From: Asterochloris sp. CNOR1
Lineage: Eukaryota; Chlorophyta; Trebouxiophyceae; Trebouxiales; Trebouxiaceae
Direction: 5' to 3'
NCBI GenBank assembly: GCA_963969365.1
Contig: OZ017748.1
Coordinates: 4,275,001-4,339,000 of the forward strand
DNA length: 64,000 nucleotides
In this document: one piece after another, positions 2,707-64,000 of the stretch
Layout: every line of letters starts with the position of its first letter
Numbering within the stretch: position 1 is the first letter of the stretch
Made by a program: the position numbers and the translations under genes
The notes under the pieces: generated by a model
Told to the model about the DNA's origin: nothing
What the model saw: the letters and a program-made list of their open reading frames with translations, nothing else
Databases searched by the model: none

Positions 2707-5700
2707 ATGGCAGCATTGGCAGACCTGAAGCAGAAGATTTCACAGCAGCTGCAACGCACAGTCTCCCAGACTGCTCTCAAGCAGGTGGAGGGCGGCAGCC
2801 CCGCATCAATCAGGGCAGCCACTGCTGCGACAGGGCCAGGCACCGTATCTGCAGTGCCAGCAAACAGGCGGGCCGATCGAGCTAAGCGGAGGGAGGAAGC
2901 TCTCAGCAGACTACCTGAGGGCTACTTTGCGGAGGAGTTTGATTCGGTGCTGTTTGAGCTGCAGCAGCTGCAGACAGGCCTCACAGAGTCTGATTTGGAC
3001 TCTGTCGTTGACGCTCGTGCCTCAGTCCTCGAGGTGTGGAATTTGTATCTGGTGTCCCTCTGCAGCTGTATGCTGTTTGCCCTGCTCTGTAGGGCGATGC
3101 TGCATTCACCTCAGTTGTAATGTACACAGTTTGCACCTCCTGTGAATTTGCAGCTGCTTGCCCTTAACTCACATGAAATAGCCGTTTGCCCTCTGCTGCT
3201 GCACCTCACCCTACTGACATATGCTGCAACAGCTTCATCAAACCAGTCAGCTGTCCCCCAGACTTGCAGGGACCAGCTGTTCCAGCCAAGCCATCTGGGG
3301 CGCTGCAACTTTCCCCCGTTTCACTGGCATTGCTGCAGACTATTGATGTCAAGCTGCCCCAGCACTCGATGCCTCACAATCAGTGACTAGCGAGTTGCTT
3401 TAGGCGTTGCAGCTGACCCGGCTTCCCTGACACCGCTACGGACTGCGAAGCTGTCCCAGCACCTGATGCCTCATACTCAATGTATGCCAGCATCTGTGTC
3501 GCCGCTGAAATTGCAACCCCCCTTCCTGGCGCTACTGCAGACTGTCAGGAAGGTGCTGTTCCAGCATGTGGAGCCTGTGCTCAAGTGCTTTATAAACAGA
3601 CACTGGCCTGCGCTGCTGCAGACAGTCGGGGAGAAACTGTCCCAGCATGTGCTGGCCAACTACGAGGAGTTCGTCTCGGGCGTCAACGAGGTGGCCTCAG
3701 TGGAGCGCAACTTACAGGTGAAGACCAGTGACAGAACATCTGATGTTGGCACGGCTGCTCGATAGAGGCTGAGGGCGCTGCGTGGTTGGCTGTACAGGGG
3801 TCAGTATGCTGCTGCTTGCTGAGGTGGCAGTGCAAGTTGACACTTGCTGCCTGGCGTCGTGGTAAGGCACACGACCTACAGGGTCACCTGAGACAGCCCA
3901 GCGTCACTGTTGGTGGCCCCAGCTGCTGTGGAGAGCTGCCTGATGGATCCCTTGGGTTTGACCCAGGACAGGGCACAGTGTCACATGCTGAGAACCACTG
4001 CATTGTAGCCCTAGACCTATCAATCTGGACATCTGCCAAAATGAGGCAACATAGACTGCCTGCCATGCAACGCATCGCAGCGCAGCTGCAGCTCGGAACG
4101 CAGCCTGGACCTCGCAGTCCTGCCAACACCTGGCTGCAGCTGCAAGCCAGGGCCCTGAGAAGACTGAAAGCCCGTCTGCACTGCTGCAGGAGGCCTATGC
4201 TTTGGCCAGGGACAGCCGCAGGGATCTGGCAGAGGCCCTGCAGGATGTCAGCACCAACCTGCGCATTGCCCAGCTGACCAAGAAGGGCTCTGGCTGGCAG
4301 TCTGTTTTGGATGTGCTGCACAAACTGCAGCAGGCCAGCCACCTCCATGAGGCCCTCAAGTGAGCCCGGGCATGTCGATTTGTTTCTCTGTGTTTTGCCT
4401 TTTTATATGAATTTTTGAGCAAGGGTGGGATACGCATTTGCTTGCCCAGTAAGGTGACTAGATTCAGTATAGATGAGATGCAACTCGATATTGCCACGGG
4501 CACGCCGTCCTTGCCCCTGCTGAACAAGCTGCAGGCGCTGCTGCAGCGCATGAGCCAGCTGCATGCGCCGCTTGAGCGCTCTCAGCTTGCTGAGGGGTGA
4601 GTGGCTGACTTGCAGCAGGCAAGGCACCTAAACCCCTCCACCCTACACCCTAAACCCCCTGACGAGGCCCACATGCGCTCTGTTCATTGCCCACCAGGAA
4701 TGTGCCGGCCATGCTGCGCAGGCTGCAGCGCAGTGTTGCTGCATAGAATTGCAAGTGGGCTGTTTCCCTTCAGCAGATTGGTGACTGCTGAAGCCACAGC
4801 AGGCTGGATCACGGCAGGCTCTGCTTCTTTGCCCAGTCTGCAGAGCGGCACTGAGAGCATGGAGCTTGTGGCAGCCCTTGAGTTGTAGTGTCATCAACCC
4901 CTTTGTGCCCTGCAGGGCAGATGCAGACAGCATAAAGTGTCCAGCAGCCTTCTGGTTCCGCGGCCATTGGAAGGACTTGTGTAGCTTGCCGGGCGGCCCA
5001 GAAAGCGTACAGCATATCCAATGCTGCCCCACCACAGATCTAGCAGAGCCGTCCCCCTACTCTGCCTGCAGGGAGGCTCTGGGCAGCGCAGTATGCGACC
5101 CACCTCTATACACCAGCTGCTACCCCAGTGTGACGCTTGCACAGCACCAATGCAAGCCTGCCACTGCCTGCAGGGAGGCTGTGGACAGTGGGGAGTATGC
5201 AGCAGCCTTCTGGCTGTGCGCCCAGTGCTGCAAGTCCATGGAGGACCTGCAGAGTCTGAAGGTGTCCCAGCAGCTCAACCACACCATCAACAAGCTGTAC
5301 GAGGACACCCTGAGCCGGCTGGAGGGAGCGCTGCAGGTGGCCTGCGCGGACTTCCAGGCTGAGTCTTACCAAAAGGCAAGTGGCACAGCAACAGAATGGA
5401 GCGGCAGCTGAGTCACGCTCTGCCATTCGGTCCAGACAGCTCACTTGGAGACGAGACAACTGACACTGTGAACATTTCCTTGTGACACCACAGCTGGGGC
5501 AGGAATGAGCATCGCAGGGCTCTCATGGAAAGGCAGACGCCCTGTAGGCATGATGGGCAGCGCTGTGCCTGATGCAATTCTGTTTCTGGCTGCACGGCAG
5601 GTTGCTTGCCCTTGGCCGCCCCGCCCTGCCTGTGCTGAAGCCCACATCTACCTCCACCAGCAAGAAGCCAACTTGGGTTGCGCACTTTGTCTTTTCAAAG

Positions 5701-8700
5701 GATACCCTCAGCAGGCTGGAGGGGCCCCTGAATGCCTGAGGACAGCCTTTGTGGACCCTTCTAGTGAGTTTTAGAAGAAGAAGCTGAGCCACTAGGTCCT
5801 GGCAGCCTGGTGGTGAGTCGCAGGGTCACACTTGAGCATCACACTCAGGTCCTGCAGGTCAAAGCGTTCACACGTGCTGCATCTGGCTGCACGCTGCAGT
5901 GCCTCCAACCCTGCCAAGAGGCAAGCGCTGAGGTGTTGTCAAGCGCTGAAATGTAGTGCATACTGGCAGGGTGCAGTGACAGCTGACCTCTTGTGCTTCA
6001 CCAGAAGGCAGTCAGCAAATTGCTCCATCTGCTGCGACGACGTGAGGTTGGACCTGAGCTGTGTTGTTAAGTTGCAGTGCATCTGTCTTCTCAGTCGTGT
6101 AGTGATGCACGCTCCTCCATGCTGGCGCAAGATTTGCAGCAGGGCTGGCTGTTGGTTATTAGTGACGCCCGCGGCGCCAGGGCTGACTGTTGGTTGTTGA
6201 TGACGCTTGCGCCCAAGCTCTGAGCTGCAGGTACTGGATGGGTGGTCATACCTGAGCAACATAAGTATGCGCTATGTGTTTCTGACGCCCGCGCCCAAGT
6301 TCTGTGCTGCAGGTACTAGATTGGTGCATCTACCTGTCAGCAACTTCGGTGCGATGGGCAAGAGAGGGGCCAGCATGCTCTGAGTCTCAAGCATCTGCTG
6401 CTTGCAGGTGCCGAAAGGGTTCACAAACGTTGTAGCTTATGAATGAAGCACCCTATGACAGAAGCCCTGTGTTTCAGGTGCTGGAGGGATACATGTACCT
6501 GGGCAACATTGGGGCCCTGGGCGAGGAAGTGATGAACGCCTTTGCAGCCGTGGTGAACAGCATGTGCCACAAGGCAGTGCGGGGGGTCGTGCTCAGCAGG
6601 CAGGGGCTGGAGGGACGGGCGCGCAACACCAGCATGATGCATGAGCTCGTCAAGCTGCTGCCTTCGGACCTGTTTCGTACCTGCCTAAATAAGGTGAGGT
6701 TTATGGGATGGGTTTGAGGCTGGGCGGGCCAGACATCTTGTGGCTGAGCTGTGGCTGAGCGGGGAGGTCTTGAGCCTGTCAGCTGGACTATCTGGCTGTT
6801 GCACAACCATGCCATAGTAGTTTGGCTGGGCTGAGCTTGAGATCTTGGCACACGAGGAAAGTCTGCCAAACCCCAGCACTTGCAGACACCTCAGCTGCGG
6901 TTCTCAACATTGCTGATTACATGCCTCAACGGGTCGGAACCCTGTTTTGCTGATCGTCAGTGGCCAGATAAAGTTAGAGCAGGCCAGGTGCAGGTCAAGG
7001 GCAAGACTGTGGTTGAGTTGCATGAGTGTGGGCAGCCTGCTGCTGATGCCGACGCGCAGCCTGAAAGAGTGCTGGGCAGCGCGGCAGCCAATCTTGCTCA
7101 TCTTTGCTGACTAAGCGCCCAGACGCTACCCCCAGCTGGCAGTTGGCTTCTAACAACCAGAACCTTGGAAGTATGTGCAGTGGCTGCATGTGGTGGGCCA
7201 CAGCTGCCTGCAGCGTTGTCCAATCACCCAATCAGTGTCTGCCTGCTGCAGGTGTTGATGGTGGTTTTCGACATCCTCCTGTCCCACCACCGCATGACCA
7301 AGTGGCACGAGCAGCGCGTGCAGCAGCACCTGCAGGACATAGCTGTCCTCCACGCAGCCGTTGCGCAGCAGGAGGAACGTCTGCACAGCCACGCGGCTGC
7401 CTCCACTAGCCAGGTGATAAGCTCTCTGGGGCGCATCCAGTGTGTCAGGAGGCGATAGTGGCCTGCATGGGCGGCCTCTGCGCAGCCATTCTGTCCTTCA
7501 CCTTTCCAGTTCAGCAGCTGAAGCAATGCAGCCTTACAGCTGCCTTGCGCGTCTCTGGTGGTTTTGTTGTGATTCAGCAAGAAGTGGCTTGATTCAACCT
7601 CAGCAAGGGAGGCGCTGCCAGCTCAAGGAAGGCGGTGCTGGCCTCACGTGCTAGTCATCTGGCAAGCAGATCACCGGCTGGTGCAGGGCATCTGCTGAGC
7701 TGGGCCTTGAACTTGCAGCCTTTGAAAAAGCCACAGTGCGGTCTGCTGAGCTCTCTCAGGTCACCCTTTGCCATTCTACAGGCTGGCAGCACCTCTGCCA
7801 CTGGAAGCGACAGCCCGACGGCTGCCAAGAGGAAGGCCGTTGGCAGCGCAACTGCTGCCTCTGCCAGCCAGGGGCAGCCTTCTGGAGGGCAGGCAGGACA
7901 TGCAGGTGGTCCTGGCAGTCCCAGCAAGGGTGGCAGTGCGCCGGATGGCTTGCCGGCAGCGCAGCAGCAGGCTGCGCCAGCTGCGGGTTCCGCAGACCTG
8001 ATAAGCTCAGACACACTAGACCCGCAGGCCCTGCAAGCTGTGCAGGTGAGGGTGCTGCTGGGGGACCTGGCTGCATTGCGAGTTTGCGACATCTCAGCAC
8101 AGGTGTCACAAGCTGCAGGCTGAAGCAGAGGCCTGCCCGCGAAAACATCCTGTGCCCCTGTCATGGTTACCTTGTCAGCTATTATGGGATTGCGACCAAG
8201 ACGTCCTCCCCAGGCTGCAGCTCGGCACCCATCCCCTCGTCTGCCTCACCGTACCCAGCAAGCGGCTGCACTGCCCGCCGTCCAGTCGTCTGTGCACACA
8301 CGCAGGCACCAGACTGGAATGGATGTGCACAGCTGAGTGCTGCTGCTGGTGCAGGAAAGGGTGCCTGGTGCACTGCCCGCCACTCAGCCCCCTTCTTGTA
8401 GCCTGACAGCCCCTTTTGCACCAGCTGCAGCAGCACTCAGCTGTGCCCGTTCATTCCAGCCTAGTGCCTGCCTCTGTGCACAGGCAGCTCCTGCTTGCGA
8501 GAGGTCTGAGTAAACTTGCACCACTGTATACAGTTACTCATGCCTGCCCCTGCTCACTGTATGGATGCTCTTTAAGTTTTGGCCACATTGACCTGCCACT
8601 GTTTACCGCCCTCCTGCAGGCGGCAGCACCGCCTGCCCTCCTTCCTGGCAGCCCAGTCGTCGACTTCCCACCCTGCCAGCTATGTCGCATCCTACATCCC

Positions 8701-11700
8701 TGCAGCGGCAGCTTCAGAGCTACTGCTTGCCTGCAGGCGGCTGCGGTTGCCCGCCCTTCAGCAGCACAACATGACACCCTTGCATCATCCACCGACAGTG
8801 GTCTCCATGTGCCTGCAGACAGCTGCGTCACTTGACCCTGTAGTCTGGGCGGCTGGCAGCCTCTCTGCCTGCCTCAAAAGCAGCAGACACCATTGTCTGC
8901 CCCTGACTGTACTCGCTGCCCTCCTGCAGGCGGCAGCGCCGCCTGCTCTCCAGCCAGGCAGCCCAGGCGGCTGGCAGTCTGGCTCCTCTCCGTCCGGCCT
9001 GCTGCAGCAGCAGGCAACAGAGGAAGGGGAGCCAGACTCACCCACCAAGCGGGCGCTGGTGCAGGCTCAGCGAGACGCTGAGGGGCAGGCACAGTTTCAT
9101 GCAAAGCAGAAGCTGTCTCCCCAGGAGGAGGCGCTGATGCACCTTCACGAGAAGGGTCATGAGGCAGAGCTGCTGAGGGAGGCGCTGCTCAAGGTAGGCA
9201 ACATGGGCTGAAGTCAGATGTGTTGTCAGCTGTGGGGGTTCTTTAGTTGGTGGCTGCACCTTCACAAGAAGGCGTATGAGGCAGAGCCGCAAGGAGACAC
9301 GCTGCTGCAACTGGTATCATGCTGGTGTAGCCAATGCTGATGCGGAAGAAGACCCTCATGCAATTGTGAGATGAGCTCTGATCTGAAGCGCTACCACCGT
9401 CAGAAACATTCAGGCAACAGTCTGGGGGAGCAGAATGCTACAGCCACAGGGCCAGACCCTGGCACTGATTCTCAGCTGCATGGACCAGCTACTGACGCCA
9501 TGCAAATTTAGGTCTTAAAAAATGTGCCTGTTCAAGTTGATACCAATCAACCACGTGCTTGTGCCATTAGTGTGCATGTACGGTGTGTACCCAAGCACCC
9601 TCCACATGTTGCATAACGTGCTCTATGCTTGATAAGGCCTGTAATGCATTCCTGGAAGCACCTCCAGCTTTTATACCTGCAGCAGGCCCAGTTGGCAACT
9701 TCGTAGTGGTGCTGATGATGTTGCAGTATGTGCAGGTCCGAAAGGGCTTGGCAGCCGGCCGCAGGTGGCGGCAGGCCCAATTGGCAGCCTCATAGTGGTG
9801 CTGATGATGTTGCAACATCTGCAGGTCCGAGAGGGGCTGGCAGACGGCTGCAGGTGGTGGCAGGCCTACCAGGCAGCCTCAGCTTCATGCTGATATTATT
9901 GCAACAAGTTGCAGGCTTAAAAGGGGTTGGCAGCCGGCCACTGGTGACGGCAGCCTCACCGTGGAGCTGATGATGTTGCGACATCTGCAGGTCCAAGAGG
10001 GGCTGGCAGCCGGCCGCAGGTGGCGGCAGCCTTAGTTGGCAGCCTCATAGTGGTGCTGATTATGTTGCGATGTCTGCAGGTCCAAGAGGGGTTGGCAGCC
10101 GGCCGCAGGTGGCTGTGGGACGAGGCCGCCCGCAAGATCGGCATCCTGCTGTCCGCCCCCTCAGCCTTCGAGGGGGAGCACTTCCAGCAGGTGAGCTGCT
10201 ACAAGTCTGTCTGCATGTGTATGCTGAATGTTGCAGCTGCATAGCAGTGCAGTGCCACCTGGGCTGCACAGCCTGCAGATGTTGCCTCTTCTCAGCCCAC
10301 TGGGGATTTGCTACATGACTTTTAGAGCTGCCAAATTGTTGGAGAGCTCAATGCGATTTGACAAGTTTGTTACGCTTCAGTCTGAACATGTTCCTCAGAG
10401 ACCTGTCAGGGCTTTGAGCGCTTCTTCACTGCCAGGTGCTGGACTGGACGCAGCAGATGCTGGCAGCTGGGGAGGCTTTCAGCGGGGCAGAGTGCACCAC
10501 GCTCCGAGACACCATTGGGCGCCAGAGCGGGAAGTTCTTCGACGCCTACCACCAGGCCAACCTGCAGGTGAGGTGGGGCAGGCTCCAATGATTGCCTAGC
10601 AGTACATTACCATGGAGCTTGAGGCGCTCAGCAACCAAGTGACCAGAGGAAATCAGCAGCATCCGTGCTGCAGATGGGTCCTTTGACAGCCTGACCTCTG
10701 CACCCGCTTCGCTCCAATAACATGTTGGCTGGGCTGAGCAGAAGGGCCTGTATAACAGTATTCATTCAACACCCGGAAAGGGTGTTCACTATGCAGCTGC
10801 TGGTCTGAGAGATTACCTGTCCTGCATCAACTGCCTGCTCAGAAGCCGTGTGCAGCAGTGGTTCCACCTTGCTCCGCCAGGCACCTGCCCTGGTCATGCC
10901 CAACCCTGCCTGACTTCTCGGGCCTGGAATTGCACTTTGAGACAGTGGCCTGCTGCAAGAAATTCCTGCTTTCGGTGCCGCACATGACTGCCATCGGAAT
11001 CTGCTCTGAGCAGGCCCTTCAGAGGCTACCCATGCTTTGCCCAGTGGCTCACAACATGTACCAGCTGAATCTCTGGAGATCAACATGATGCTGTCATTCA
11101 CATTGCACAGTCCAGGCCCCACCAGGCGCTGTGCAATGACTGTCACCATGCTGCTGCCAGCCATCTGCAGCATGCTGTGGCAAATTTGCTGTGACATGAG
11201 CGGCTTGTCAGATTGTCTGGCAACACCAATCCTTTCACTGCTGTTCCTGATTGTCGTCCCACTCCCTGTCCAAGAGTTGCCCGTTTGTGGTATTGCACGG
11301 GCCACCCTGTCACTGGGACTGCCCTCTTTGGCTGCTCATACCCCATGAGCGCCCCCTGCAGGCGCTGCACAGCATGCTGGAGCGGGAGCTCTGGAAGAAG
11401 CTGCCGATGATCCCTGGGGGCTTGCCCAGCCTGACCGATGCAGTGGAGGGACCCCACTCCCCACCGGCACTGGGACAGATCGGGGCAGCTCTCGGCAGCC
11501 CGCAGCTGTCCAGCAGCAGTGCTTTCGAGCAGTGGGCGGCGCAGGGGAACCCTTGGCGGGCAGGGCCAGGTCAGCGCTGTGTTCTTGCCATGCTGGGGCT
11601 GGCCAGAGGGGCTGCTCATATGGCAGGGGCAAAGGCGGGTCTTGCAGCCTGCCAGGGCCATGTCCAAAGGCGAGCTGCCTTGTGCATGAGGCAGTGGGGC

Positions 11701-14700
11701 ATCCAGACTGGCGCTGCCCTGCACAACTACCACTGAGCAACATCTTGCTCAGCACAGCTTTGGCATGTCAATTGCCTGCGAAACTGCTGACCATGCATGT
11801 GGTAGATGACCATTTGCACCATCACCTGCAGCAAAGCTGCACCGCTCTGTCTAGGAGGCAGGGCAGTCCCACCAAGTGCGCACCTGTGTCACATGCGGGC
11901 GGTAAAGCCCTGCAAACCGCGGCTTCCTGCCCTGCCAGTCATGCTCAGCAACGACGTCCACAGAGCCGCCCCTGCCTGCAGCCAAGTCGGACCACTCCGC
12001 CTCAGAGCAGGGCAGCCCCACAAAACGTGGGGCTGTCTCAGATGAGGAGGCTGATGAGTTGTACGGGGACTCAATAGACGAGGATACCCAGAAAGTCCGG
12101 CCGCCACCTGGGCAGGAGAGGAATCCCAATGCCCTCCCTGTCGGTGAGCTTCGTGGGCCTGCACAGACTTTCAGCAGCTCTGGCTGCCTGGTTTGTGGCT
12201 TAAATGTCCTGCTCAGTCAGGCCGCCACCTAGGTATTCAAGCAACTTGTATGCTACCTCTATTGGCAAGGCGCACTTGACATGAGGCTGCACAGCAAGCA
12301 GCTGTGAGGCAAATCCAGCAAGGCTGAATGCTGCCAGGGAGCTGCTGTTCTGCCAGATTCAGGCTGTTTGCCACCAGGAAGCTGTTGGTGTGGCAAGCTG
12401 CAGGCTCTCTGCCGTCAGGGAGCTGCTGTTGTGCCAGAATCAGGCTGGTTGCCATCAGGAAGCTGTTAGTATGGCAAGATGCAGGCTCTCTGCCGGTAGG
12501 GAGCTGCTGGTTCTGCCAGGCTGCAGAGACTCTCCAGCTTCCCGCATCGCGCTCCAGTACAAGTTCATGCTGTGTGCCAGATGCACGTGCATCTGCTGAA
12601 CAGATGGCAGACACAGATGTCCCCCTGATGACCAATTGCTGCTTGCACCTACTAGGTTCACTCAAGAGGCCTCATCTAGTGCAGGCATACGTTTGCAGGC
12701 ATCTTCAGCTTCAAGCCCCAGCCCAGTGACAAGGCACTGCCCTTCTGTCAGTGGCATTGGGTTTTGTTCAGGGTATGTGCAGGCCGAATGGCAGCCGCCG
12801 AAGTCCCCACACCAAATAACTCGTCCTGTATGCAGGCCAGATGGCAGCCGCCGACGTGCCCACAATGACGAACTCGTCCTGGCGCATGCTGAGGCTTACA
12901 TGCGAGTACGCGGACCTCATGCGCGGCCTGCGCGCTGAGGCTGGCAAGGTCTTCTCGGGCCTGTGCGAGATGTTCGAGATGTACCTGCTGCACGTCTTCC
13001 ACAACTTCAGCGACATCAGCCTCGCCGAGTTGGTCAGCCCCCACCAGCAGCAGCAGCAGGTGGGCATTTGTTCATGTGCAGATCTGATGTTCATTCAGGC
13101 TTCAAACAGTGGCAAGCTAATCAGATCCTGCCAGCTGCAGCAGCAGGTGGGCCCGCAGGCTCAGCTTCATGGGCCTGGTAGGTCGGCAGCCGGTGGAGAG
13201 GCGCTGCTGTCGTGCTGGCCGCAGCATGCCAACACAGCTGCACCCCACTAACACACCACCTGCTGCTGCTGATGTTGGGGACGGGCAGACTGCTTATGCA
13301 GCAAATGTTGCCTGGCCGGGCCCCACCAGCTGCAGCACAGCAGCAAATGGGTTGTCATGGGGTCAAGCCTGGTTTGCAGGCCGGGGCCAGCCTGGGGCGG
13401 CAGAGATGTCACGCCTGTGCAGTTGAGATGTGCCCTGTGCTCGCCATGTGTGCTTTGGCAACCCCTGAAACTTTGCCGCCGGAGGGTGGCTGCCCCTGCA
13501 GGAGCGGGGATGTCAGTGTTCACGCGCTCCTGCATCCACACTCAGCACTCTCTCCGTCTCCTGTCCCTTGCTGCACATGCAGGGCAGACTGGACGGCACC
13601 CTTTCACGATGCACCTTTGTCAGAGTCTGTGCACTCTGACCAAACCTGTGGATGCCTGTGGCTACCTGGTGATGTTCTGCAGGTCGCAGCTTATTTCCAC
13701 GCGCTGTGCTGCTAGAGATGGCGTAGCATAGCACTGGAGACAGCACCCCACCTTCAAGTGTATGCCTTTGCAGGGCGGCGGTGACGTCATCCCTGTGCGT
13801 TTGCGCAACGCCCTGCTGCGCATCCTGAATCGCAGCCTGGTCAAGTTCCGCACCAGCTACGTGCCCAGCAGTGTGTGGGACAAGATGCTCAATAGTGGGC
13901 ATGCACCCAATGCCATCAGCAGCGACAAGTCTGCCAGCCCTGACGGTCAGGTGATACTGGGGTGGAGGAGGGCTTGCTCTTGTAAAAGATGTTGTGGGAG
14001 GTCCTTGTGGTGCTGTGAGCTGTTGCATATACCTGTGAGACAAGATGCTGACCAGCAGGCACACTGAGGCTGCCCTCAGCAACAATGAGGTCACCACTGC
14101 TGATCGGCAGGTGAGGCTTGTGAGTTGATGGGATAAAGGTTGGTGTGCCTTGGGCTGTGGCCAGTGGGCAGCCGCTGTGCTGCCTGCGCGGCAGCCTTGT
14201 GTGCACGACAAGGCGCTCAACAGTGGTCTTGCCATTGCCAACAAAGTGACAAAATGTAACACTCCTGATGGGCAGCCTCCAGATGCTCGGGGGCTGCATG
14301 TGCATCATGCTTAGGAAGCTGGACTTTGCCATTTGCGAGACGACATAATTGGTGAAACAGATGATGCTCGCCAGCAGACATATTGCCACTGTCATCAGCA
14401 GCAAAAAGGCCACCACTTGTGATGGGCAGGCGTGGATTGAGTGCTCGTGCGCCACTAGGGGGCGCTCCATTTGCCTCATGCTCTGGCTGGCAAGCAGTCG
14501 AGTGGCTGCAATTAGCAGCAGCAACTGACAGCAAAGCTTAAGGTCTCAGGGTGCTGCACTGTCCCTGGGGCAGCTGGAATGATTCATGGCCTCATGTGGA
14601 GACCGAGGTCAGCAGAGAAGCAGCCAATGGGGCTCCAGACGGGGAGAGGTTTGCCACCCGTTGGTGAGCGGGTTCCTGGTGCCTCTGTGATGGTCCTTGC

Positions 14701-34743: not shown

Positions 34744-41767
<7,024 letters not shown>

Positions 41768-44360: not shown

Positions 44361-44495
44361 CCCAATGGGTGGAGGTTCACAAAGCCAAGGCTATACTTAG
44401 CAAGACCCAATGGGTGGAGGATCAAAAAGCCCAGGCTACGTACAGCTACTCCCAATGGGTGAAGGCTCACAAAGTCGCGGCTATGCACTGCCCAT
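44361..44495. repeat. 45-bp tandem repeat, three copies
   Basis: Three head-to-tail copies with an exact 45-bp period, starting at 44361, 44406 and 44451, each beginning CCCAATGGGTG(G/A)AGG and containing CACAAAG/CAAAAAG then GGCTA. The start is a short palindrome (CCCAATGGG). It lies downstream of the transporter stop and is not part of a gene I can read. Confidence 0.9.
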
Positions 44496-44657
44496 GTGCG
44501 TAAGAGGGCTCTACGACTGGACTCTACACTTTGATGTCGGCAGCGCTGCTGGCAGCACTCCTCGTTGAGGGGTTTGAAGACTCTCTGAGCAGTGCCAGCT
44601 TCTCAAAGGCACCACTGGCAGCTGAGGCCCCTGCACAGCAAGGCCAACTTCACATCA

Positions 44658-53471: not shown

Positions 53472-54234
53472 ATGTCGATGTGAGCTGCTCCCTGCTTGCT
53501 GCTCCCTGCTTGCTGCTTGATGCAGCCGCTCGTGCAGCCTGCTGATGCCTGTGTTTGCTGCAGGATGGGCATGAGAGTCCGCATGTTCTTTGCGCGCATG
53601 GGCTGCATGCGGCCAGCCACTGCTGGTGAGTTGTGTGCTAGTCAAATGTCAGTTGGGCCTCCATTGATACTGCTGCTCACCTGGTGGCTCCAAATTGCTT
53701 TGCTTTGCGCAGCACTGCGTTTGTTGCAAGTCTGCTTGCTGCTGTGTGGCAGCCTGCCTGCTGAGTTAGAACACATTGCCTTATGTCTCAGGCTGCTTGC
53801 TGCTGCGGGGTGCCTGCCTGCTGGGTTGGAAAAGCGATTGAGCACATCAGATTAGCCAGCAGGACAGCCGCCCAGTGTCTTCACCTGACTTGTGCAGTTT
53901 GCCCCAGGCTTTCTCTGGTCTGCAGGGCAGTGCCTGCTGAGTCAGAAAGTGGCTGAGCTGGCAGGCAGCTGCTCACCAAACTTTTGCAGTGCATCTGAGG
54001 TTTGCTGCTGTCTCTGCAGGTGGCATGGGCTCAACCACAGGAACCACAACCACCACCACAACCACTGGCATGAACTCCACTGGAATGGGCACCACTGGAC
54101 GGCGCCGCGGCCTGTTCGGCTTTGGTGGCCGGCGTGGCATGGGCGGCACAACTGCCCAGACAGGCACCACTGGAAGGCGCCGTGGCCTGTTTGGCGGCAG
54201 GCGCCACAGGCAGCAGGCCGGGACTGTCCTCTGA
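53472..54234 (+). CDS. Small Thr/Gly/Arg-rich protein, unknown function
   Basis: Exons: 53472-53479 (8 nt), 53564-53625, 54020-54234. They total 285 nt in frame, 94 aa. It begins MSMMGMRVRMFFARMGCMRP, a Met-rich basic amphipathic stretch that could target an organelle. It continues with a Gly/Thr tract (GTTTTTTTTG) and two copies of a GTTGRRRGLFG unit (residues about 50-85), ending HRQQAGTVL. Splice phases agree (2, then 1) and donors are GTGAGC and GTGAGT. A TATA-like TTTATAT lies 137 bp before the ATG. I recognise no family. The Arg/Gly/Phe repeats recall nucleic-acid- or membrane-binding tails, but that is a guess. Confidence 0.6.
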
Positions 54235-55020: not shown

Positions 55021-58000
55021 TCAGAAGTACAGGTAGTTGGCCAGGAAAGAGGCGGCCATGAGCACAGCCTTGTGGTCCGCCGGCGCCGCAGGGGGAAAGG
55101 CCACAAAGAAGTCGTTGGCGTTGGTGAACATTGACCTGCAGGGCAGCAACGCAAAGATTATTGGCCCAAAGCAAGCTGGCAGAGGCCACCGAGAGTCAAT
55201 GTCAATGGATGTTGTCCTGCAGAGGAGCACACCCAAACACCTACAACCTCCCTGGCCACTGCCAGACTGTGAAGTGCAGAGACAGGCTGCAGCAAAGCAT
55301 GGCTGGCAGCTGTGGCTGAGTCCCCTGCTTGACTCTGCGAGTCTGGAGAGGCCCTTGTGGGTGCAACTGATTTGGCTGCATCAGCTGAAGGGGGGTTGAC
55401 CTTGCCAGTGAGCACGCTGCCAGTGAGCAGCAGTGCCCTGTCCTGCAGGTGCGCATGTCACAGCGCTGCACATGCTGCAGGAAGGCAGGCCAGCTGGAGG
55501 CAGCTGCCCGCACCGGAGAAGCATCGATGATGCGGGCTGCACACCACTCTGGTCAAGCCTCAGGGCCCGGCATGGTGCTGGCTATGGCTCTGTGCAGAGC
55601 GGCTGCTCCCCAACAAGCGGCTGCAGGTGGGGCACGGACCCACCAGGCATACACATGCTGGCACCAGCTTGGCCACGATGGGCCTCACAATATGCAGCCA
55701 GCTGACTCCTATCTGACCGCTGGCTGTGATGGGGACCAGGCATCTGGCTAAGCTGTGGGCTGCGCTGCAAAGCTGCCTGCGGCTGCTTCATGAGGGCACA
55801 ACTGCTTGCTGATGCAGTTTTCCTAAATGCATTGGCAGTGGGGTCCCCACCACATGATCTTGCAACAGGCCTGACCAAGCACATGCAGCGTGCTCCCACA
55901 CCATGGGGCACCCTGCTTGGAGGTGCACTGATCCGTATTGTTGCCAGGTCAGACTCACAAAAACCTCCAAGACAGGGCAGCTACCTGCAGCACGACCACC
56001 AATGCAGCGCACTGAGTTGTCTCCAGCAGCCCTTAGTGCAGGGAATCCACCAACTGCAGCGTCTTGGGTAGGTCTGCATGACTCACAGCAGCCCGGCCCC
56101 ATACCTGGCAGCAGCCCTGAGTGGCAGATGCAGAGACCACAGCTGTGGACCCACCTGCAGCATCCTGGGTAGGTCTGAATGACCTCGCCAACGGTGTCTG
56201 CGCCGCCGGCCGGGTGGATGGCCAGGCGCTTGTGCTTGCACATGCAGTTGGGCAGGCACGCGGTGGTGCAGCAGTTCTGGCAGCACGACACTGCAGGGCA
56301 AGAAAGGGGAACTTCAGCTGCCATGTGACCAGCACATCCACAGCAGAAGCGCTTTTGGCAGCACACCACTGGAAAGCAGGGAAGCGAAATGCGTAAGATG
56401 TCATGCTTGGCTGAGGAACAGCAGCATCATACTACTGCCTGCAGGGCAGGAGCCAGAGAATTGTTAGCCCTCATGCAAACAGTGAAAGCACTGCTGGAAG
56501 GTCGTTGCCGCGGGAGCGGGGGGGCAGGAAGACGTTTCTCTTGAAGGCATAGGCATGGCGACAGCGATCTGGCAGCACATCACGGCAGGAAAACAGAGGA
56601 GTCCCAGCACAGATGACGGCACAGAAAAGGCACATGCACTTCAGGCACGTCTTTTTTTGGCAGCAGTGTGACGGTCTGCAGTCTCGGCCTGAGAAGCATT
56701 TTGTCCTTGCTGCGAGTTTATGTGCCTTGTTGTGGGTGTGCAGAACATTGCACAGCCAGCTCTGAACACCATTGCGGGGCAGCCGCAGCTGCCCTGACTG
56801 ATAGCGCAAAGCAATATCCCTGCACTGGAGGTGGCTCCGGCACATCATGACCAGAACCGAGCAGCCTCAGGTACCCATAGCGCTACACCAGCACACTCAG
56901 CACAGGAGCCTGATACAAAGCCACATGGGCTGCCCCAGCTGGCCGAACACAGCAGCCACAGGGTGCAGACCCACAGAGCTGGCCCTGCGGACTCGGCACA
57001 GGCGCTGGATGCCAACAATGTAGCAGCCTGGCTGGACAGCCGATTTGATTGTGTCCAGGTCCCACACCAGCACCACAGATGGCCACTCACTGGTGAGGGT
57101 GTAGATGAGCGTGCCAGCCGCGTCGTACACCTTGATCCAGCTGCTGCAGCTGCAGCACTTGTGTGTCTGCTCTGCGTAGCCCATCACAGTGCCTGCAGGG
57201 CAGCAATGTCATTCCCTTTTATTGCGATGAAGCAGTCTTTGCCCAGCGAAGGCAGGGGTCTGTTTTTGCGCAGCAGCCACAACCCCTGATGGGCATTGAC
57301 GAGCCATGGGACATCCTTGCAGCTGCTCAAACATGTGTATATCTGCTGTGTACAGCTGACAACAAATCCCGGAGGACAGTGGCGATCACTAATGTTACTG
57401 GCTTGCTCTGTTTGTCTGCTGAAGATGTCCAATACAGTCTGAGCAGGCAAGCAGGGCCAGGCCTTTAACAAAGTGACGGCGTTAGAAGCTGAGCGTCCAG
57501 CTAAAGGCGGCCGCAGCGTGTTAATGCGTCACAACCCTGCCCCAGCAATACGCAGGCGATGCTTGGCTAGTCAGCAGACGGCCACAGTCTAACATTTCAC
57601 AAGATTGAGAACCCAGAGAGGGGCAGCAGTGGCCTGGACGAAGCTGCTGGCACAGCGTGAATACAAAGCAGTGCAGTATTGCCCCTCTGCGTGCATTTTG
57701 CAGAGGTACATGAGAGGACAGTATGTGTTTGGCAGCCAAGGAGCAGCACACCACACACCCCAGCAGGGGCCGCTGCACACCTGCATGCCACAACGCATGT
57801 GCAGACGGCAGTGTCTTGAGACAGAAGACACACGCAAGCTCTCACCCTCTGTGTTCCGCACGAAGACCTTGAGGGGGCAGGAGATGCAGCAGGTCAGGGG
57901 CCAGCAGGGCAGCCAGAAGCATGGCGCCGCGCAGGGGCGCTCCATCACAAAGCTCAGCCCATTGAACTTGTCCTGCAGGCAGGCGGTCAAAAAGAGAGTA

Positions 58001-59595
58001 AGTGTTGAAGTGTTGTAGCAGCACCCTCATGCTGGCGCCGGCACTAACATAAGAAGCAAATGGCGACTGCCCTTGCAGGTCAACGCCAGGCTGCCCAACC
58101 CCAAGAGCTGCACACCTGCCAAAGCCGCCTCGTCAAGTGCCTGCCCGCTCATATTGCGGGTCAGCATCAGCAGGGCAAGGTGGCCGGTCAAGCACAGCTA
58201 TCACAGCTCTGCTACATTGCCCGAACACCTGCCCACCGCACAGGTCAGTGTGCTTAGTCGTGTCAGCGGGGTCTCCTGGACACTCAGTCGTCGTACACGT
58301 TGCGGGCAGCAACCATTGCTGCCAAAGCCAGGGTTTAGCCAGCAGTACAAGATCACCCATGCCTGCTCAAAGTGGCCAGCCTGTCAAGCATCAGGAGGTC
58401 CCAAATTGCAAGCAGATCTGGCTCTGCTGCGCGGCCCTACCTTGCAGGTCAGCGTCAGCCTGTTGTAGCAGCAGGGGAAGCACATGAAGGAGGCACACCC
58501 TGGGTTGTAGTCATCCACTGCCAGGCTCAGCTCCCCAGCATCAAACTCATTGTCTGAGGGCAGCTCCCCAAACCCCCGCACGCAGGGCTTCACCATGTAC
58601 TGCAGGCAGCATAGCGGGTGGAACAAAAAATCTGTGGTTGGAAGTACAGGAAATGGTGGGCGGAGACTCGGCCAAGCCCTCTGGTACTGCATGCACAGGG
58701 GTTGGGTGGGGATTTGTCAAGCTGGAGGTTGGCATAAGCAGAGGGGGTGGACAACAGAGCAGCAACGTGGAGAGTTTAGGGTGGCACATGGGGAAGCCAT
58801 GAGCACAAGCAGGACATGACGACAATTACCGCACTTGTGCAGCGCAGCATGTTGACAACAGCGAGCCTTGCTGGTGTGCTGCAGCCTATATGATGCCTGA
58901 GCGCTGGAACGGACTGAAAAGGAGCAGGGACTCGAGCTGGGCCTTGTAGGTCACTTTTGTCCAAAGCGGCAAGCAGAGCTGCACATCTGCTGCACATGCT
59001 CTGCAACACAAGGGTGGCTGGCCATCAGGCTGCCCTCCCACCTCTCTGAGCGGCTTGGAGCAGCAGCTCTTGTAGTCATCTTTGAAGAACCCACGGTACT
59101 TCACATGCACCGTGTTGAGGGGCGCCAGCAACTGTGTCCCCACAGACACACCAGGCGCTGCAGGAAGGGCAGAAGGATGTCAGGCCGCGTGAATGTGCAG
59201 AGCATTCCTCAAGGGAATTTGCAGGGTGAACAGCATGGCGCCCTATAGAGCAGAAATCCATGCTGCCTGGCAGCATGCAAGCTGGCGCTTGAGGAGGCTG
59301 GCAAGCATCATTCGGAAAGGCCGGCATGAGGGGGCCTCGTCTAATAAAAAGCCGGCAGCCATACCAGACATGCAGCAACGATACTTGGAATGCGTGCAGA
59401 CGGCGGTGAGCCTGGACACTAACATGGCAATTCACCGCATCACAACGCCACGGAATGCTGCTCACCTGGGCCTGCCCCAGGCGAAGGCAGGTTGCTGGAG
59501 CTGGCTACCAGCTGCTGTGCCATCTGTTGGTCCTGGGGCTTGACAAGCATTGTCTTGGGGCTGCTGCTGTCGTTGGCATACAGCTGTCCGGCCAT
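55021..59595 (-). CDS. Phospholipid scramblase family protein
   Basis: Scramblases move phospholipids between membrane leaflets in response to calcium, or act as lipid-binding membrane regulators. Exons (minus): 59595-59466, 59157-59042, 58599-58441, 57972-57846, 57192-57091, 56290-56155, 55135-55021. They total 885 nt in frame, 294 aa. The order matches the family: LSFVMERPCAAPCFWLPCW then CISCPLKVFVRNTEG, TVMGYAEQTHKCCSCSSWIK, VYDAAGTLIYTL, the very Cys-rich SCCQNCCTTACLPNCMCKHK, then EVIQTYPGCCRSMFTNANDF and the hydrophobic C-terminal helix KAVLMAASFLANYLYF. Cys clusters suit palmitoylation or metal binding. The N-terminal 50 residues are Gln/Ser/Pro-rich and probably disordered. Exon 6 lies among ghost copies, so its exact version could vary between transcripts. 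Confidence 0.9.
56037..56090 (-). repeat. Ghost copy of scramblase exon 6 donor edge
   Basis: Plus-strand AACTGCAGCGTCTTGGGTAG GTCTGCATGAC mirrors the real ACCTGCAGCATCCTGGGTAG GTCTGAATGAC at the exon 6 donor (56155). It is downstream in gene direction. Confidence 0.85.
56330..56690 (-). repeat. Ghost copies of scramblase Cys-rich exon 6 start
   Basis: Read on the minus strand, copies of the exon 6 opening (TGTCGTGCTGCCAGAACTGC) occur at about 56377-56330 (TGGTGTGCTGCCAAAAGCGC TTCTGCTGTGG, after a TTTCCAG acceptor), 56600-56560 (ATGTGCTGCCAGATCGCTGT) and 56680-56630 (CACTGCTGCCAAAAAAAGAC GTGCCTGAAGTGCATGTGC, after CTGCAG). All encode Cys-rich segments. The real exon runs 56290-56155. Confidence 0.7.
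58067..58215 (-). repeat. Ghost copies of scramblase exon 3 donor edge
   Basis: Plus-strand CCCTTGCAGGTCAACGCCAG GCTGCC at about 58070 and a weaker GGCCGGTCAAGCACAGC... GCTCTGCTAC at about 58180 resemble the real CCTTGCAGGTCAGCGTCAGC CTGTTGTAG at 58440. They lie on the intron side. Confidence 0.6.
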
Positions 59596-59704
59596 GGCTG
59601 CAGCAGTTCCCAGGCACCTGCAAGCCTGCCGTGTGGTTGCTCCGGGCGCCTGCAACCCTGCCGGTTGTTTCTGCGATAATTAAATTGAAAATAAACTGTT
59701 CATG
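59596..59704 (-). promoter_or_regulatory. Very short intergenic gap: scramblase promoter / coiled-coil gene 3' end
   Basis: Only 109 bp separates the stop of the coiled-coil gene from the scramblase ATG on the same strand. The gap must hold one gene's 3' end and at least part of the other's 5' leader. It includes an AT-rich patch (about 59676-59700, AATTAAATTGAAAATAAACT on the plus strand). Confidence 0.45.
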
Positions 59705-62700
59705 TCATTTGTCAGTATGGCTGGCTGCACTTTCAGTCCCATCTGCCCCAGCATCAGAGGCTGCCTCAGACAGTGAACCTTCCTGTAGGGAGTGCTTGGC
59801 CACCAGGCTGCCAGAAGGGGAGGGCGGAGCTGAGCCGCGCCAGATCTGCAGGCAGCATGCAGGGACAATGAGACTGGCTGCTGGGCAGCGTTAGCATGAT
59901 GAAGAGGAACTGCAAGACTCACCCGCCAGGATCCAGACGCTTGCTGCTTTGGGCTGACAATTGAGCTGGGCAGCTTGGGATCTCCAGCTTGACCCTTTGC
60001 CTCAGCTAGCTGCATCAGCACGTTGACCTGCATAGCGGTGGTGGTCTCACAGCTGTGACGTGCACCAATTGGCACTCTTTCAGGAGCTGGGCACACAATC
60101 AGCAATTTGCGGCTTTGTGCTGATGGAGCTGCGTGCTCACCTCATGGCAGATGCAGGCCACTTTTCGAGGCATCTGACAGTGCGCTCACCTTCTCCTGGG
60201 TCGCCTGCGCCAGCCTGACTTGCAGGTCACTCTTCTGCCGTCTGAGAGCATCTAACTCTGAGCCATCGTGAGCCTGCAGGGCAGGCAGTGAGGTCTGGGG
60301 GCTTTCTGGTCTGGGTGGGACATGTCCCTGGCCTCTGCCATTGACAAATGCATCAGCAGATGATGCGGCACCTTGAACTCAGGCAGTGCAGAAGCTGTGC
60401 AGGCAGGCAATCAGGTTCTCATATCTGCAGCTCAGTGCAGAGGCCTGTGCAGGCAGCAAAATGCAGGACACACCTGCACCTGCTCCACTAAAGGGCAAGA
60501 GCAGGGCAGATGCTGTGCATGCGGGTTGTGCAAATGCTCGAGCTCTGAGAGACGCTGTGCACTGGCTGTGCAAGCAGCAGGTAAGGGCTCGCACCTGCAC
60601 CCGCTCCAGCTCTGAAAGGCGCAGCAGGGCCTTCACCTTGTCCTGCGACACCTGCAGCAATGGAGAGAGAAATGGTCACTAGCAGGATGCTCGCTGATCA
60701 TGGCGCTTTCACTGTCTGCTCCCCCGTTGTATTGGTGCTCTCAGCATTCACATGCTGGCAATACGGCACTGCTTGACAGCAGCCCCGGCCTGCTGCTGTG
60801 TAACAGCTGCGATGCAGTGCCTGGCAGTGAACATAGCAACAGCTTTAAAGCGCCAGCAGTGCTGACCAGTCACACTACCCAGCATTGGGCAGGCTGCCGG
60901 GAAGCATAAGTCTAGACATCTACATGACCAGCATAATTGACCAGCAGCAATGCACTGCCTGCTAGGGAACCTAACGAGCACCACCGAGGGGGCTGTATCT
61001 CTGCATGGACCTGCTTGGCAAGAAGTGACACATGAGGGTCGACCCAACAAAGTGCTCTGGTCAGCAACCCCAGTGTGGGGCTGCTGTGCGTGGGGAATGT
61101 GGCTTCTCTCAAGCCGCTCAACAAGCTGCCTGCCATATGCCCTCACCTCCTGCAGCTGCTTCTCAACAGCGCTGATTCTGGACTGCATCTCATCCTGCTT
61201 CTTCTGAAATAGAAGAACCTGCAGCACCATTGAGACAGTAAGAGCAAGGCGTGGCAGGGCACCACATTGTGTGCTCACTGGCCTCAGCAGGACTGCTTAC
61301 AAATTACTGCAGCTGCCCTACCACAGACAGCCCACCTGTTGCTCGCGCTCATTGTAGGTCTCCTCCTCGACAGCCCTGAACTGGGCCTGCTGCTCCTCCA
61401 TCTGGTTCTTGAACTCCTGGCGCACCGTGCGCAGCTCTGTGTTGGCCTCAGCCAACTTTCGGTGCGCGTCCCTCAGCTGCCCCTCCAGGTTTTCCTGCTC
61501 TTGCTGCAGAGCGTCCACGGTGGCCTGCAGGCCACCGAAAGGCAAGCGACTGCATTTTGCTTGAGTTCTGGGTGGCTGTCTCTCCATGTGTCTCATTCTG
61601 CTGCAGGGCATTGGGTGTGACCTATGGGGCAGCAGGAGTGTGCCAGGTGAAATTGAGCAGGGACCAGAGTGGCGACTGGATGGTGGGACGCAGCCTCAGC
61701 CTCGGAAGCTGCTCCAGTCCAGCCTCTCAATGTGAAGTCATCCTGCAGGTCCTCCCCGTTGCTGAAGCAGTGCATGCTGGGCCCAGGTCAGCAGTCAGAT
61801 TCTGAGTCTACTTACGTGCCTAGCAAAGCCTCCGCAGACGGCACGCTCCACCAGGCAGCCAGCTGCTGAATCACTGGTTTCAGCCTGGCACAGTTCACAT
61901 CCTTAGTTGCTGCAACCAAGAGGCACCCTGGATGCAGTTCATTTAGTGTGCAGGCAAATTTGGCTGCACAAGCAGGCTCAGCCTCAGATGCAGCTCCATG
62001 TGCATCCTCAGCTGTCTCTCTGCCCCAAATCCCGAGCCCTAATTCTCCAAGTGCAGTGTGGCGTGTGAGGCAACCCTGACTGCAGCGCTGCACATTGCCC
62101 ACCTTGAGCTGCTGGATCTGCTTGCTGGACGCTGCCTCAGCCTCAGATGCTGCTGCCTGTGCATCCTTCAACTCCTTCTCTGTAGCCGCGGCTCTTTCTG
62201 ACAGCGATCCCAGCTTCTGCCAGGCAGTTGCCGTCTCTGCCTGGGACTCGTGCAGCTCATCCTGCAGAGAGGACTCCAAGAGTTCAAACCAAATGAGCAA
62301 GCCCAACGATCAACAGCCCCAGCTGCTGCTACGCAGTTGCTGTCTCTAATTGGGATCATGTAGCTCATCCTGCGGCACGGAGACCAGCAGCTTGCTTTAG
62401 ACGGCCAGCTCAGAGACCATGACCCCAGCTGCTGCCTCGCAGCCGCAGCCCCTGCGTAGGACTTTGTGCAGCTCATCCTGCAGAGTGGAGACCAGCAGTT
62501 GAGCCAATCAGCGAGCTCAGGAAAAACGATCCCCGCTGCTGCCATGCAGTTGCTGTCTGTGCCTACCTTGTGCAGCTTGCCCTGCATGCCGGTGACAGAA
62601 AGCTGGAGTCGCATTGGCCAGCTGAGTCGTTACCAGCTATGCCATGTTTGCAGCCGCTCATTGTGCTCAGGCTGTCCAACAAATGTGTGTCAACAGCAAT

Positions 62701-64000
62701 AGCTGTCCCCATCTGCTGCATTGCTGCTGCTGGCACAGCCTGAGGCTGCTGGACCTCATCCTGAAACAAAACCATGACAACTGAGTGTCCCTCAGCATGG
62801 CAACAGTGGGCAAGCACTGTCTGGGACTTGTGCAGCCCCTGCTGTTGAACAAATAGCCGCTAAATCCACAGGCACCAAGCATCAGCTTGATCGAGTTACA
62901 GGCAGACACTTGTTGTCTCTGCCTGGGACTCACCGATAAGCACCAGCTCTCCCCAACTGCATGCAGGCACACACTGTCTGTGCCTGTGGTTACCTGCAGG
63001 CTCTTGAGACACCTTCTGCTGCACTGCAGCCATGCCCGCCTGCAGTCATTGTGACCTCCCGCAGTGATTTGCCAGCAGACATGAGGACTCCTCAGGAGAA
63101 TTGCCTGCTGGGGTTCACCAGCCGCTGCAGCCCCCACAGCTGGCACCCGCTGCAGTCACCTGCAGGCTCTTGACCTGCTGCTGCAGGTGGTCCACCCGTG
63201 CGGTGGCGGCACGCAGGTCCTGCCGCAGCCCCGGGATGGCAGCGGCCTCCTGCTCGCAGCCCTCCAAGTCCTTCACTCGCTGAGTTGCCTCCTCCAGCTC
63301 CTCCTGCATCTCCGCCCTGCAGCAGAGAGATCCATCACTGTGTGTAGTGTTCTGTTTGCAGCATCTGGGTTCTCCTGCGGTGCGCTTCCTACAGGGCAGG
63401 CTGTGAGTAAGATACAGGCTCGCTTCCAGTTTCAATGCGCTGAATGGCCTCCCTCAATTCCTCCGGCCGGCATCTGTGCCCTGCAGCACAAATGAACTGA
63501 CCAGCCAAGTTGCAAGCGTTGCCTGAAGATGGAGTCCTGCTCAGCAGTGGTGTCGGCCACCAGCAGTCCAGCAACCTGCATGAGCTTCAATCCCGCCCAC
63601 ACCTGACCAGCCAAGCTGCCTGCCTTGCCTGAGGATGGACTCCTGCTCAGCAACGGTGTCAGGCATCAGCCAAGTTGCAAGCCTTGCCTGAGGGTGGACT
63701 CCTGCTCAGCAGTGGTCTCAGCCACCAGCAGCCGCCGTTGCTGCTCCCGAGACAGCGCCTTGAGCTCCTCGGCCTCATACACCGCCTTGTCGCGGTCCTG
63801 GATGGCTCTGCAAGGTGACAGACTGAGGTCGCTACACTGCACCACACTGTGCTGGAATGCACAGACGGACTGATTGAAGCCTGATTGGCTGCAGGAGGCC
63901 ACGAGGCTGCGCTGACACCATCTTCCAGCCCTGAAGGAGGCGTAGTCAAGTCCGAGATGTGCACCCAATTTGTGAAGTGAGCTAAAAGTTCTGTTGCAAG
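59705..64000 (-). CDS. Coiled-coil protein, 3' part (5' end outside window)
   Basis: Exons read (minus): 63807-63688, 63316-63160, 62261-62103, 61524-61336, 61203-61147, 60651-60595, 60273-60190, 60027-59923, 59845-59705; further exons lie beyond the right edge and others may be missed. The joined protein is almost wholly heptad-like: RDKAVYEAEELKALSREQQR, AEMQEELEEATQRVKDLEGC, GLRQDLRAATARVDHLQQQV, DELHESQAETATAWQKLGSL, ATVDALQQEQENLEGQLRDA, EFKNQMEEQQAQFRAVEEET, KKQDEMQSRISAVEKQLQE, SELDALRRQKSDLQVRLAQA; a Ser-rich tail ends SAASHTDK. This could be a golgin, centrosomal or cytoskeletal scaffold; composition alone cannot say. The first intron in view has a GC donor (CTCAG|GCAAGG), supported by a phase-correct join to 63316. 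Confidence 0.75.
60450..60594 (-). repeat. Ghost copies of coiled-coil gene exon 60651-60595 end
   Basis: Plus-strand GCACCTGC(T)CCACTAAAG near 60476 and GCTCGAGCTCTGAGAGACGC near 60536 repeat the real GCACCTGCACCCGCTCCAGC TCTGAAAGGCGC (60591-60622), on the intron side of the donor. Confidence 0.6.
62270..62960 (-). repeat. Array of ghost copies of coiled-coil gene exon 62261 start
   Basis: On the minus strand the exon opens GATGAGCTGCACGAGTCCCA GGCAGAGACGGCAACTGCC. Going upstream, copies occur near 62370 (GATGAGCTACATGATCCCAA), 62480 (GATGAGCTGCACAAAGTCCT), 62583 (GCAAGCTGCACAAGG), 62758 (GATGAGGTCCAGCAGCCTCA), 62838 (GGGCTGCACAAGTCCCAGAC) and 62932 (GTGAGTCCCAGGCAGAGACA). Six or more copies of different ages fill about 0.7 kb. 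On the other side, 61700-61750 and 61965-62005 hold copies of the exon's GCATCTGAGGCTGAGGCAGC segment. Confidence 0.85.
63500..63687 (-). repeat. Ghost copies of a GC donor junction in the coiled-coil gene
   Basis: Two copies of the end of the exon at 63807-63688 (GCTGAGCAGGAGTCCACCCT CAGGCAAGGC on the minus strand) lie at about 63655-63615 and 63548-63510. They read GAGTCCATCCTCAGGCAAGG and GACTCCATCTTCAGGCAACG. Both copies keep the non-canonical GC donor. Confidence 0.85.

Follow-up and report, generated by a model that had tools for sequence, protein, structure and literature searches.

Tandem duplication across a splice junction has been described in the potato RdRp gene; the duplication there crosses an acceptor and brings splice signals with it, and an 83-bp intronic duplication lies in the same gene (PMC4974935). 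The DNA of the alga Asterochloris sp. CNOR1 examined here resembles this case in that tandem duplications span intron-exon boundaries and carry splice signals. The potato case concerns a single gene, in which a recent event created a new intron, whereas across 354 kb the alga has many local pairs, most of them old, whose unused copy makes an existing intron longer. In human segmental-duplication genes, internal tandem repeats at exon-intron boundaries are described as changing introns (PMC2812944). These are presented there as recent copy-number variants, whereas the alga carries decayed relics at many junctions. We found no published description of junction duplication at such a scale; single cases are in print.

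Patch-mediated repair in rice, in which small tandem duplications arise from break repair, was reportedly described by Vaughn and Bennetzen in 2014. Fill-in by Pol alpha-primase/CST is given as a source of small tandem duplications, and among short insertions (<100 bp) in the human genome, short direct duplications are described as the commonest (PMC8355091). The alga is like the patch-repair systems in having short direct duplications in all sequence classes, and differs from the break-repair systems in its unit mode near 95 nt and in the old age of the copies.

We analysed a 64-kb window (the whole stretch of DNA under study) together with two mid-chromosome blocks, C1 (200 kb) and C10 (90 kb), 354 kb in total. 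Gene models were self-trained, and all introns, exons and genes are predicted. The window holds 74 predicted introns and hence 148 junctions, of which 87 were tested; the other 61 were left out for weak or short exons or introns shorter than 90 nt. Which copy works at each junction was judged by reading frame and homology. The window genes and their junction matches (FDR 5%, 500 controls) are as follows.

3026–17606, plus strand: predicted syndetin/VPS50 gene (start uncertain); copy at 13 of 30 tested junctions
19868–24755, plus strand: predicted DUF3431 gene; copy at 4 of 9 junctions
25157–27895, minus strand: predicted Sua5/YrdC gene; copy at 4 of 6 junctions
28838–33802, minus strand: predicted malate dehydrogenase gene; copy at 2 of 10 junctions
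36610–41380, plus strand: predicted MYST acetyltransferase gene; copy at 3 of 11 junctions
Prefoldin gene: copy at 1 of 4 junctions
Permease gene: copy at 1 of 6 junctions
55031–58599: scramblase gene; copy at 0 of 3 junctions
60190–63921: coiled-coil gene; copy at 4 of 8 junctions

Among solved structures, the window malate dehydrogenase is nearest to the glyoxysomal enzyme. Assignment to the green algae is supported by this enzyme, by 31 chlorophyll a/b-binding matches and by CCCTAAA telomeres. A search of the window against Rfam at gathering scores gave no match.

The original prediction held that introns here contain copies of the neighbouring exon edge with its splice site. Such copies are present in the adjoining intron at 35 of the 87 tested window junctions (FDR 5%, 1000 controls; 32 of 87 in a repeat with 500 controls), and the predicted count of more than 20 arrays is borne out, with at least one junction copy in eight of the nine loci (scramblase is the exception). 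Over the window, C1 and C10 at p<=0.01, the exon's own edge is copied at 67 of 477 junctions and the wrong edge of the same exon at 5 of 448, in agreement with the predicted arrangement (copies of exon starts upstream, copies of exon ends downstream). Among exon-intron pairs, 63 of 72 on the acceptor side and 31 of 47 on the donor side span the junction. That nearly every junction is affected was an overstatement: the share is about 40% in the window (FDR 5%) and 14% in the three blocks together (p<=0.01), with block values of 26/87 (30%) in the window, 23/298 in C1 and 18/92 (20%) in C10. Two of the junction matches, at 19868 and 42849, adjoin long predicted introns (2261 and 1876 nt) that may run past the end of a gene. 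Individual copies and arrays in the window are listed below.

4909–5096, plus strand: two copies (4909–4969, 5062–5096) of the exon start at 5174 with its acceptor
6215–6362, plus strand: two copies of the exon start at 6478 with its acceptor
9255–9306, plus strand: one copy of the exon end preceding the donor at 9194
9679–10111, plus strand: array with copies of the exon start at 10080 and its acceptor
12778–12881, plus strand: pair spanning the acceptor at 12836
14668–14782, plus strand: youngest junction pair, two copies of the intron end and 15 exon bases of the syndetin exon starting at 14768; the acceptor copy is at 14712
15245–15601, plus strand: four-copy array of about 104-nt period, ending at the acceptor at 15541
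20584–20646, plus strand: one copy of the exon start at 20727 with its acceptor
21835–22305, plus strand: several copies (21835–21886, 21909–21970, 22024–22072) of the exon start at 22289 and its acceptor, with related copies from 21497
23662–23824, plus strand: two copies of the exon start at 24058 with its acceptor
26658–26759, minus strand: copy of the donor-side end of Sua5 exon 26773–26891
28060–28116, minus strand: copy of the beginning of Sua5 exon 27762–27895 with its acceptor
29115–29167, minus strand: copy of the beginning of malate dehydrogenase exon 28838–28952 with its acceptor
38125–38175, plus strand: decayed copy of the end of MYST exon 37884–38079; the working copy is the one aligning to KAT8
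42935–43159, minus strand: two copies (42935–42974, 43018–43159) of the acceptor and start of prefoldin exon 42746–42849; the predicted intron may cross a gene end
48553–48614, minus strand: copy of the donor-side end of permease exon 48675–48765
63502–63670, minus strand: two copies (63502–63566, 63608–63670) of the donor-side end of coiled-coil exon 63688–63807

The pair that had been reported as identical at 14672–14783 exists: 14668–14726 aligns to 14724–14782 at 95% over 59 nt, and TRF places an array at 14672–14779 at 100%. Because only 15 exon bases are copied, it is absent from the FDR matches (p 0.04 for the acceptor at 14768). Reading frame and homology also agree that the last acceptor and the first donor are the ones used. 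This pattern loses its value as a clue to mechanism, because selection on the protein demands such a choice.

The edge comparison bears as well on the birth of introns by tandem duplication of exon pieces carrying AGGT, in which, as here, the duplicated sequence carries splice sites. In that process an exonic proto-splice site makes a new intron, whereas in the alga existing junctions are duplicated. Intron gain of this kind expects the opposite exon edge at each intron end, but each copy here sits next to the junction it duplicates, and the exon's other edge is not found there (the 5/448 and 67/477 above); we regard this origin as highly improbable.

Local pairs were found by our own diagonal scan; a BLAST self-comparison gave no lags below 80 at score >=100. 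Direct pairs at score >=100 and lag 15–500 number 141 in the window, 88 in C1 and 48 in C10, against 1 and 0, 3 and 0, and 0 and 0 at control lags, and the lag mode is 75–115 nt in all three. Local inverted pairs number 11, 24 and 12 (window, C1, C10; control 5, 13 and 5) against 204, 168 and 97 direct pairs. Intron-only pairs (226 in 237 kb) and pairs outside gene spans (72 in 79 kb) have similar densities. Exon-exon pairs are fewer than expected (8 against 20.4) and seven of the eight lags are divisible by 3, although these numbers are small. With gapped extension calibrated on random anchors, copies are contiguous in 16% of 142 pairs of lag 55–140, much like the 19% for decayed simulated tandem copies. 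Short repeats around unique inserts were considered and dropped, since decayed simulated tandem copies look much alike; one pair in C10 (6887/6969) still fits that description, with 22 of 22 positions identical, dissimilar flanks and spacer, and no tandem appearance.

Pair density in the window (281 per 100 kb) is 3.4–5 times that of C1 and C10, and TRF arrays of period >=20 number 15 in the window, 4 in C1 and 4 in C10. In the 5 kb beyond the window the density at score >=90 is 160 per 100 kb (8 pairs), intermediate between window and blocks. Minisatellites form head-to-tail arrays, often near chromosome ends, that vary between individuals; arrays are present here, and the window lies 36–100 kb from a contig end. 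Introner-like elements occur as near-identical copies dispersed over a genome. The alga is unlike them: three array stretches of the window match only themselves in the 56.4-Mb genome (in a search that skips very common words), which argues against a dispersed repeat family. Assembler collapse or duplication is excluded because the copies have diverged. Nothing was found in favour of either source, repeat family or assembly artefact, and we give them almost no credence.

The original prediction went further and proposed a mechanism of duplication across splice junctions that is still running; on that view, transcription, splicing or the TGCAGG motif could direct the copying to junctions. Exon-intron pairs are indeed 2.2–2.9 times commoner relative to intron-intron pairs than under random placement, and the 14668–14782 pair is nearly identical, but duplications are equally dense outside gene spans, exons are affected as well though filtered, and TRF arrays fall on junctions in 6 of 18 cases against 3.3 expected (P 0.09). 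Young pairs are few: 13 of 131 exon-intron pairs, about 10%, reach >=85% identity, against about 36% in a steady-state simulation.

We simulated neutral, random tandem duplication with the exon half held conserved; the timing of the pulse was tuned after the data had been seen. A pulse 0.25–0.40 substitutions ago yields an equal excess (observed/expected 2.1–2.5, real 2.2) with similar identity histograms, repeat lengths and apparent-spacer lengths, and simulated densities of 215–226 pairs per 100 kb make 29–34% of junctions significant, against 30% in the denser real window. Steady schedules (0.75–1.13 and 0.98), younger pulses (1.00 and 1.38), a declining rate (1.58) and a wide schedule (1.64) fit less well than the old pulse. 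At higher thresholds the simulated excess (3.0 and 3.9) overshoots the real one (2.4 and 2.9), and second-multiple lags are commoner in the real data. Matches to intron middles (6/77 in the window, 10/227 in C1, 1/72 in C10) are rarer than the simulated 9–16%, and junction matches in C10 exceed the 11–16% predicted from C10 density. By the intron-middle statistic, a junction bias of roughly twofold or more is left unexplained by the neutral simulation. Taking these results together, we consider running, junction-directed copying unlikely. A real attraction of some of the duplication to splice junctions, as the roughly twofold excess remaining after survivorship might suggest, seems to us quite unlikely; were it true, transcription or splicing would help to cause tandem duplication and so lengthen the introns acted on.

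Introns had been described as largely built from junction copies. Exon-edge copies at score >=85 make up 7.7% of intron bases in the window, 1.0% in C1 and 3.1% in C10, well short of that description; all detectable local duplication accounts for 20.9%, 6.3% and 8.5%, to which copies too old to detect may add. The predicted course of events, in which local duplication crosses a junction, the copy not in use decays and the intron gains length, is upheld: the duplicated fraction increases with intron length (Spearman 0.42, 146 introns), and copy mismatches of 0.215, 0.203 and 0.296 at codon positions 1, 2 and 3 support the conclusion that intron copies drift like free DNA. Because positions 1 and 2 mismatch almost as much as position 3, the exon parts are not kept as coding sequence, which argues against retention of the copies as decoys or alternative splice sites. 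Splice dinucleotides are intact in 71 of 93 copies (AG 47/63, GT 24/30), against 183 of 274 neighbouring dinucleotides, as useful spare sites would predict, but this excess is small and could stem from pair selection; we find such usefulness very unlikely.

The probable explanation is general small tandem duplication, mostly old, with survivorship at junctions and intron lengthening as a by-product. Many small direct duplications, with units mostly of 75–115 bp, were placed without much regard to genes, as the lag spectrum, the direct orientation and the like density in introns and outside gene spans show. Those within exons were mostly purged by selection, as the depletion and frame-keeping show on small numbers, and those within introns would fade fast, both sides decaying. 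After a junction-crossing duplication, the working exon edge would stay constrained while the other copy would lie free in the intron; with one copy constrained, such pairs would be recognisable for longer and so seem clustered, an effect that the simulation reproduces. Most detectable events would date to about 0.25–0.4 neutral substitutions per site, by the tuned simulation, and the rate would have fallen since. Size and orientation point to patch repair, in which staggered breaks or paired nicks are filled in and joined, as the likely molecular source, with later expansion of some arrays. Intron growth would be strongest in the chromosome-end window.

Repeats centred on splice junctions can thus arise from survivorship alone. 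Introns retain a record of past DNA duplication in their decaying spare copies, and the exon-fixed half of each duplication serves as a dated reference, making past rates of small tandem duplication readable from gene structures. Should the old pulse and the excess at the chromosome end prove general across the genome, regional differences in intron length would follow the local duplication rate and not selection on introns.

The Asterochloris sp. CNOR1 genome assembly (56.4 Mb of eukaryotic sequence in 21 contigs) contains 31 chlorophyll a/b-binding matches, which identify a photosynthetic alga. Contig C1 carries telomere repeats at both ends. C3, which contains the window at 4275001-4339000, is 4,374,761 bases long, placing the window approximately 36–100 kb from the contig end. 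We compared the window with two mid-chromosome regions, the C1 block (C1:2000001-2200000) and the C10 block (C10:1000001-1090000). Gene models came from a self-trained HMM gene finder; the exon edges are predictions, many with homology support. The splice consensus was MAG/GTRAG for donors and TGCAG/G for acceptors. In the joint gene models, GC instead of GT took approximately 9% of the trained donor weight, which may reflect real GC-AG introns or model error. The three regions contain 441 predicted introns, with 73–74 in the window (median 578 nt), where nine loci were predicted:

Syndetin/VPS50
DUF3431
Sua5/YrdC
Malate dehydrogenase
MYST acetyltransferase
Prefoldin
Amino acid permease
55031-58599, scramblase
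60190-63921, coiled-coil gene with no Pfam family over the cut-off

The original prediction held that introns contain tandem copies of the adjoining exon edge and its splice site at nearly every junction. For each of the 477 junctions with a confident exon (from 882 in the three regions), we aligned the 36 bases at the exon edge with the neighbouring intron; 100 mixtures of introns from other genes, matched in length, served as controls. Matches exceeded these controls at p ≤ 0.01 for 31/238 donors and 36/239 acceptors (window, 9/40 and 17/47; C1 block, 12/151 and 11/147; C10 block, 10/47 and 8/45). The opposite edge of the same exon matched in 2/223 and 3/225 cases, and intronic 36-mers compared with the remainder of the same intron matched in 4/187 and 13/189 (near intron ends) and 8/187 and 9/189 (mid-intron). 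A preceding run (144 introns) had 1/144 and 1/144 matches for reversed introns and 6/123 and 2/125 for inner exon pieces, seven of the latter eight in the window. When the number of controls was raised and exon edges of two lengths were used, 35/87 or 32/87 window junctions (two runs) passed an FDR of 5%. The copies are thus real and the effect is strong, but it falls well short of nearly every junction.

Published papers describe single cases and an intron-gain model (PMC4974935, PMC3443670, PMC2891723, PMC2812944) and, in another, break repair as a route to short tandem duplications (PMC8355091). We found no report of exon-edge relics at comparable scale in the open-access journal papers searched.

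The local duplications are predominantly direct. Direct pairs of similar stretches (score at least 100) numbered 141 in the window, 88 in the C1 block and 48 in the C10 block, versus 1 and 0, 3 and 0, and 0 and 0 in two control lag ranges. The lag between copies had a mode of 75–115 nt and a second hump at about twice that. Inverted pairs numbered 11 versus 5 in the control (window), 24 versus 13 (C1 block) and 12 versus 5 (C10 block), with 204, 168 and 97 direct counterparts in the same comparison. Three array stretches matched only themselves in the genome. A 22-nt exon piece in the C10 block (6887-6908) recurs in an intron 82 nt away (6969-6990) with zero mismatches; the flanks and spacer are unlike, so this is not a plain tandem copy. 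CCCTAAA-like telomere-type repeats occur in an intronic array (window 21554-21782) beside the DUF3431 exon at 22289.

There were 226 intron-only pairs in 237 kb of intron and 72 pairs in the 79 kb outside gene spans, about the same density overall; the order differed by block, and the outside class may include unrecognised gene parts. Satellite-like arrays with periods of ~190 and ~150 nt lie outside confident gene spans at 97984-99302 of the C1 block. Exon-exon pairs numbered 8, versus 20.4 expected under free placement, and 7/8 had lags divisible by three; three of the eight come from a single array (15245-15601) in which one predicted exon may be a relic. A repeat at window 54088-54195 can be read through as a protein segment rich in glycine and threonine.

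Local pairs (score at least 85, lag 15–500) covered 20.9% of intron bases in the window (control lag, 0.2%), 6.3% in the C1 block and 8.5% in the C10 block; exon-edge copies alone (score at least 85) covered 7.7%, 1.0% and 3.1%, respectively. The duplicated fraction increased with intron length (Spearman 0.42, 146 introns), from none in 13 introns of 60–200 nt to 26% in 17 of 600–900 nt, and was 16% in 7 introns above 900 nt; within the window the trend was not significant (26 introns, P 0.15). Pair density in the window was 3.4–5 times that of the mid-chromosome blocks, along which it also varied tenfold; this single chromosome-end sample no more than suggests a link between duplication density and chromosome ends.

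Mismatch between exon and intron copies at codon positions 1, 2 and 3 was 0.215, 0.203 and 0.296 (118 pairs): the intron copy drifts, and the exon changes mostly at silent sites. Change in the exons since duplication speaks for old copies and against copies already diverged at birth. AG was intact in 47/63 copies and GT in 24/30, versus 183/274 neighbouring dinucleotides; there is no purging of unused splice sites, and the AG/GT excess is small.

Exon-intron and intron-intron pairs numbered 131 and 226, versus 74.4 and 287.4 under random placement, a 2.2-fold excess of exon-intron pairs. Higher thresholds gave 2.4 and 2.9, and the values by block were about 2.4, 1.4 and 3.4. Of 18 TRF arrays within gene spans, 6 touched a junction versus 3.3 expected (P 0.09). 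A junction excess could come from a junction-directed process still running or, as we favour, from random old tandem duplication in which the exon half is conserved and the intron half decays. We simulated random tandem duplication forward (unit 95 ± 25), rejecting exonic events and conserving exon copies; each setting was run from two to four seeds, and the timing was tuned after the data were seen. A constant rate gave no junction excess (0.75–1.13 across runs; 0.98 in one run), and 36% of its exon-intron pairs had at least 85% identity versus 13/131 real pairs. Confining most events to a pulse 0.25–0.40 substitutions per site ago gave an excess of 2.1–2.5 and an identity spectrum similar to that of the real pairs; older pulses gave 2.4–3.2, younger pulses 1.0 and 1.4, and a declining rate and a wide pulse 1.6 each. 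Median repeat length was 56 simulated versus 51 real, and median apparent spacer 36 versus 44.

At 215–226 simulated pairs per 100 kb, 29–34% of junctions were significant (window, 26/87 at 281), and at 73 pairs, 11% (C1 block, 23/298 = 7.7% at 67). The C10 block lay above the simulation, with 18/92 = 20% of junctions at 86 pairs per 100 kb versus 11–16% predicted. Mid-intron matches were too frequent in the simulation (9–16% versus 6/77, 10/227 and 1/72 in the real data), so that, on top of random old duplication, a bias towards junctions, twofold or a little higher, may also act.
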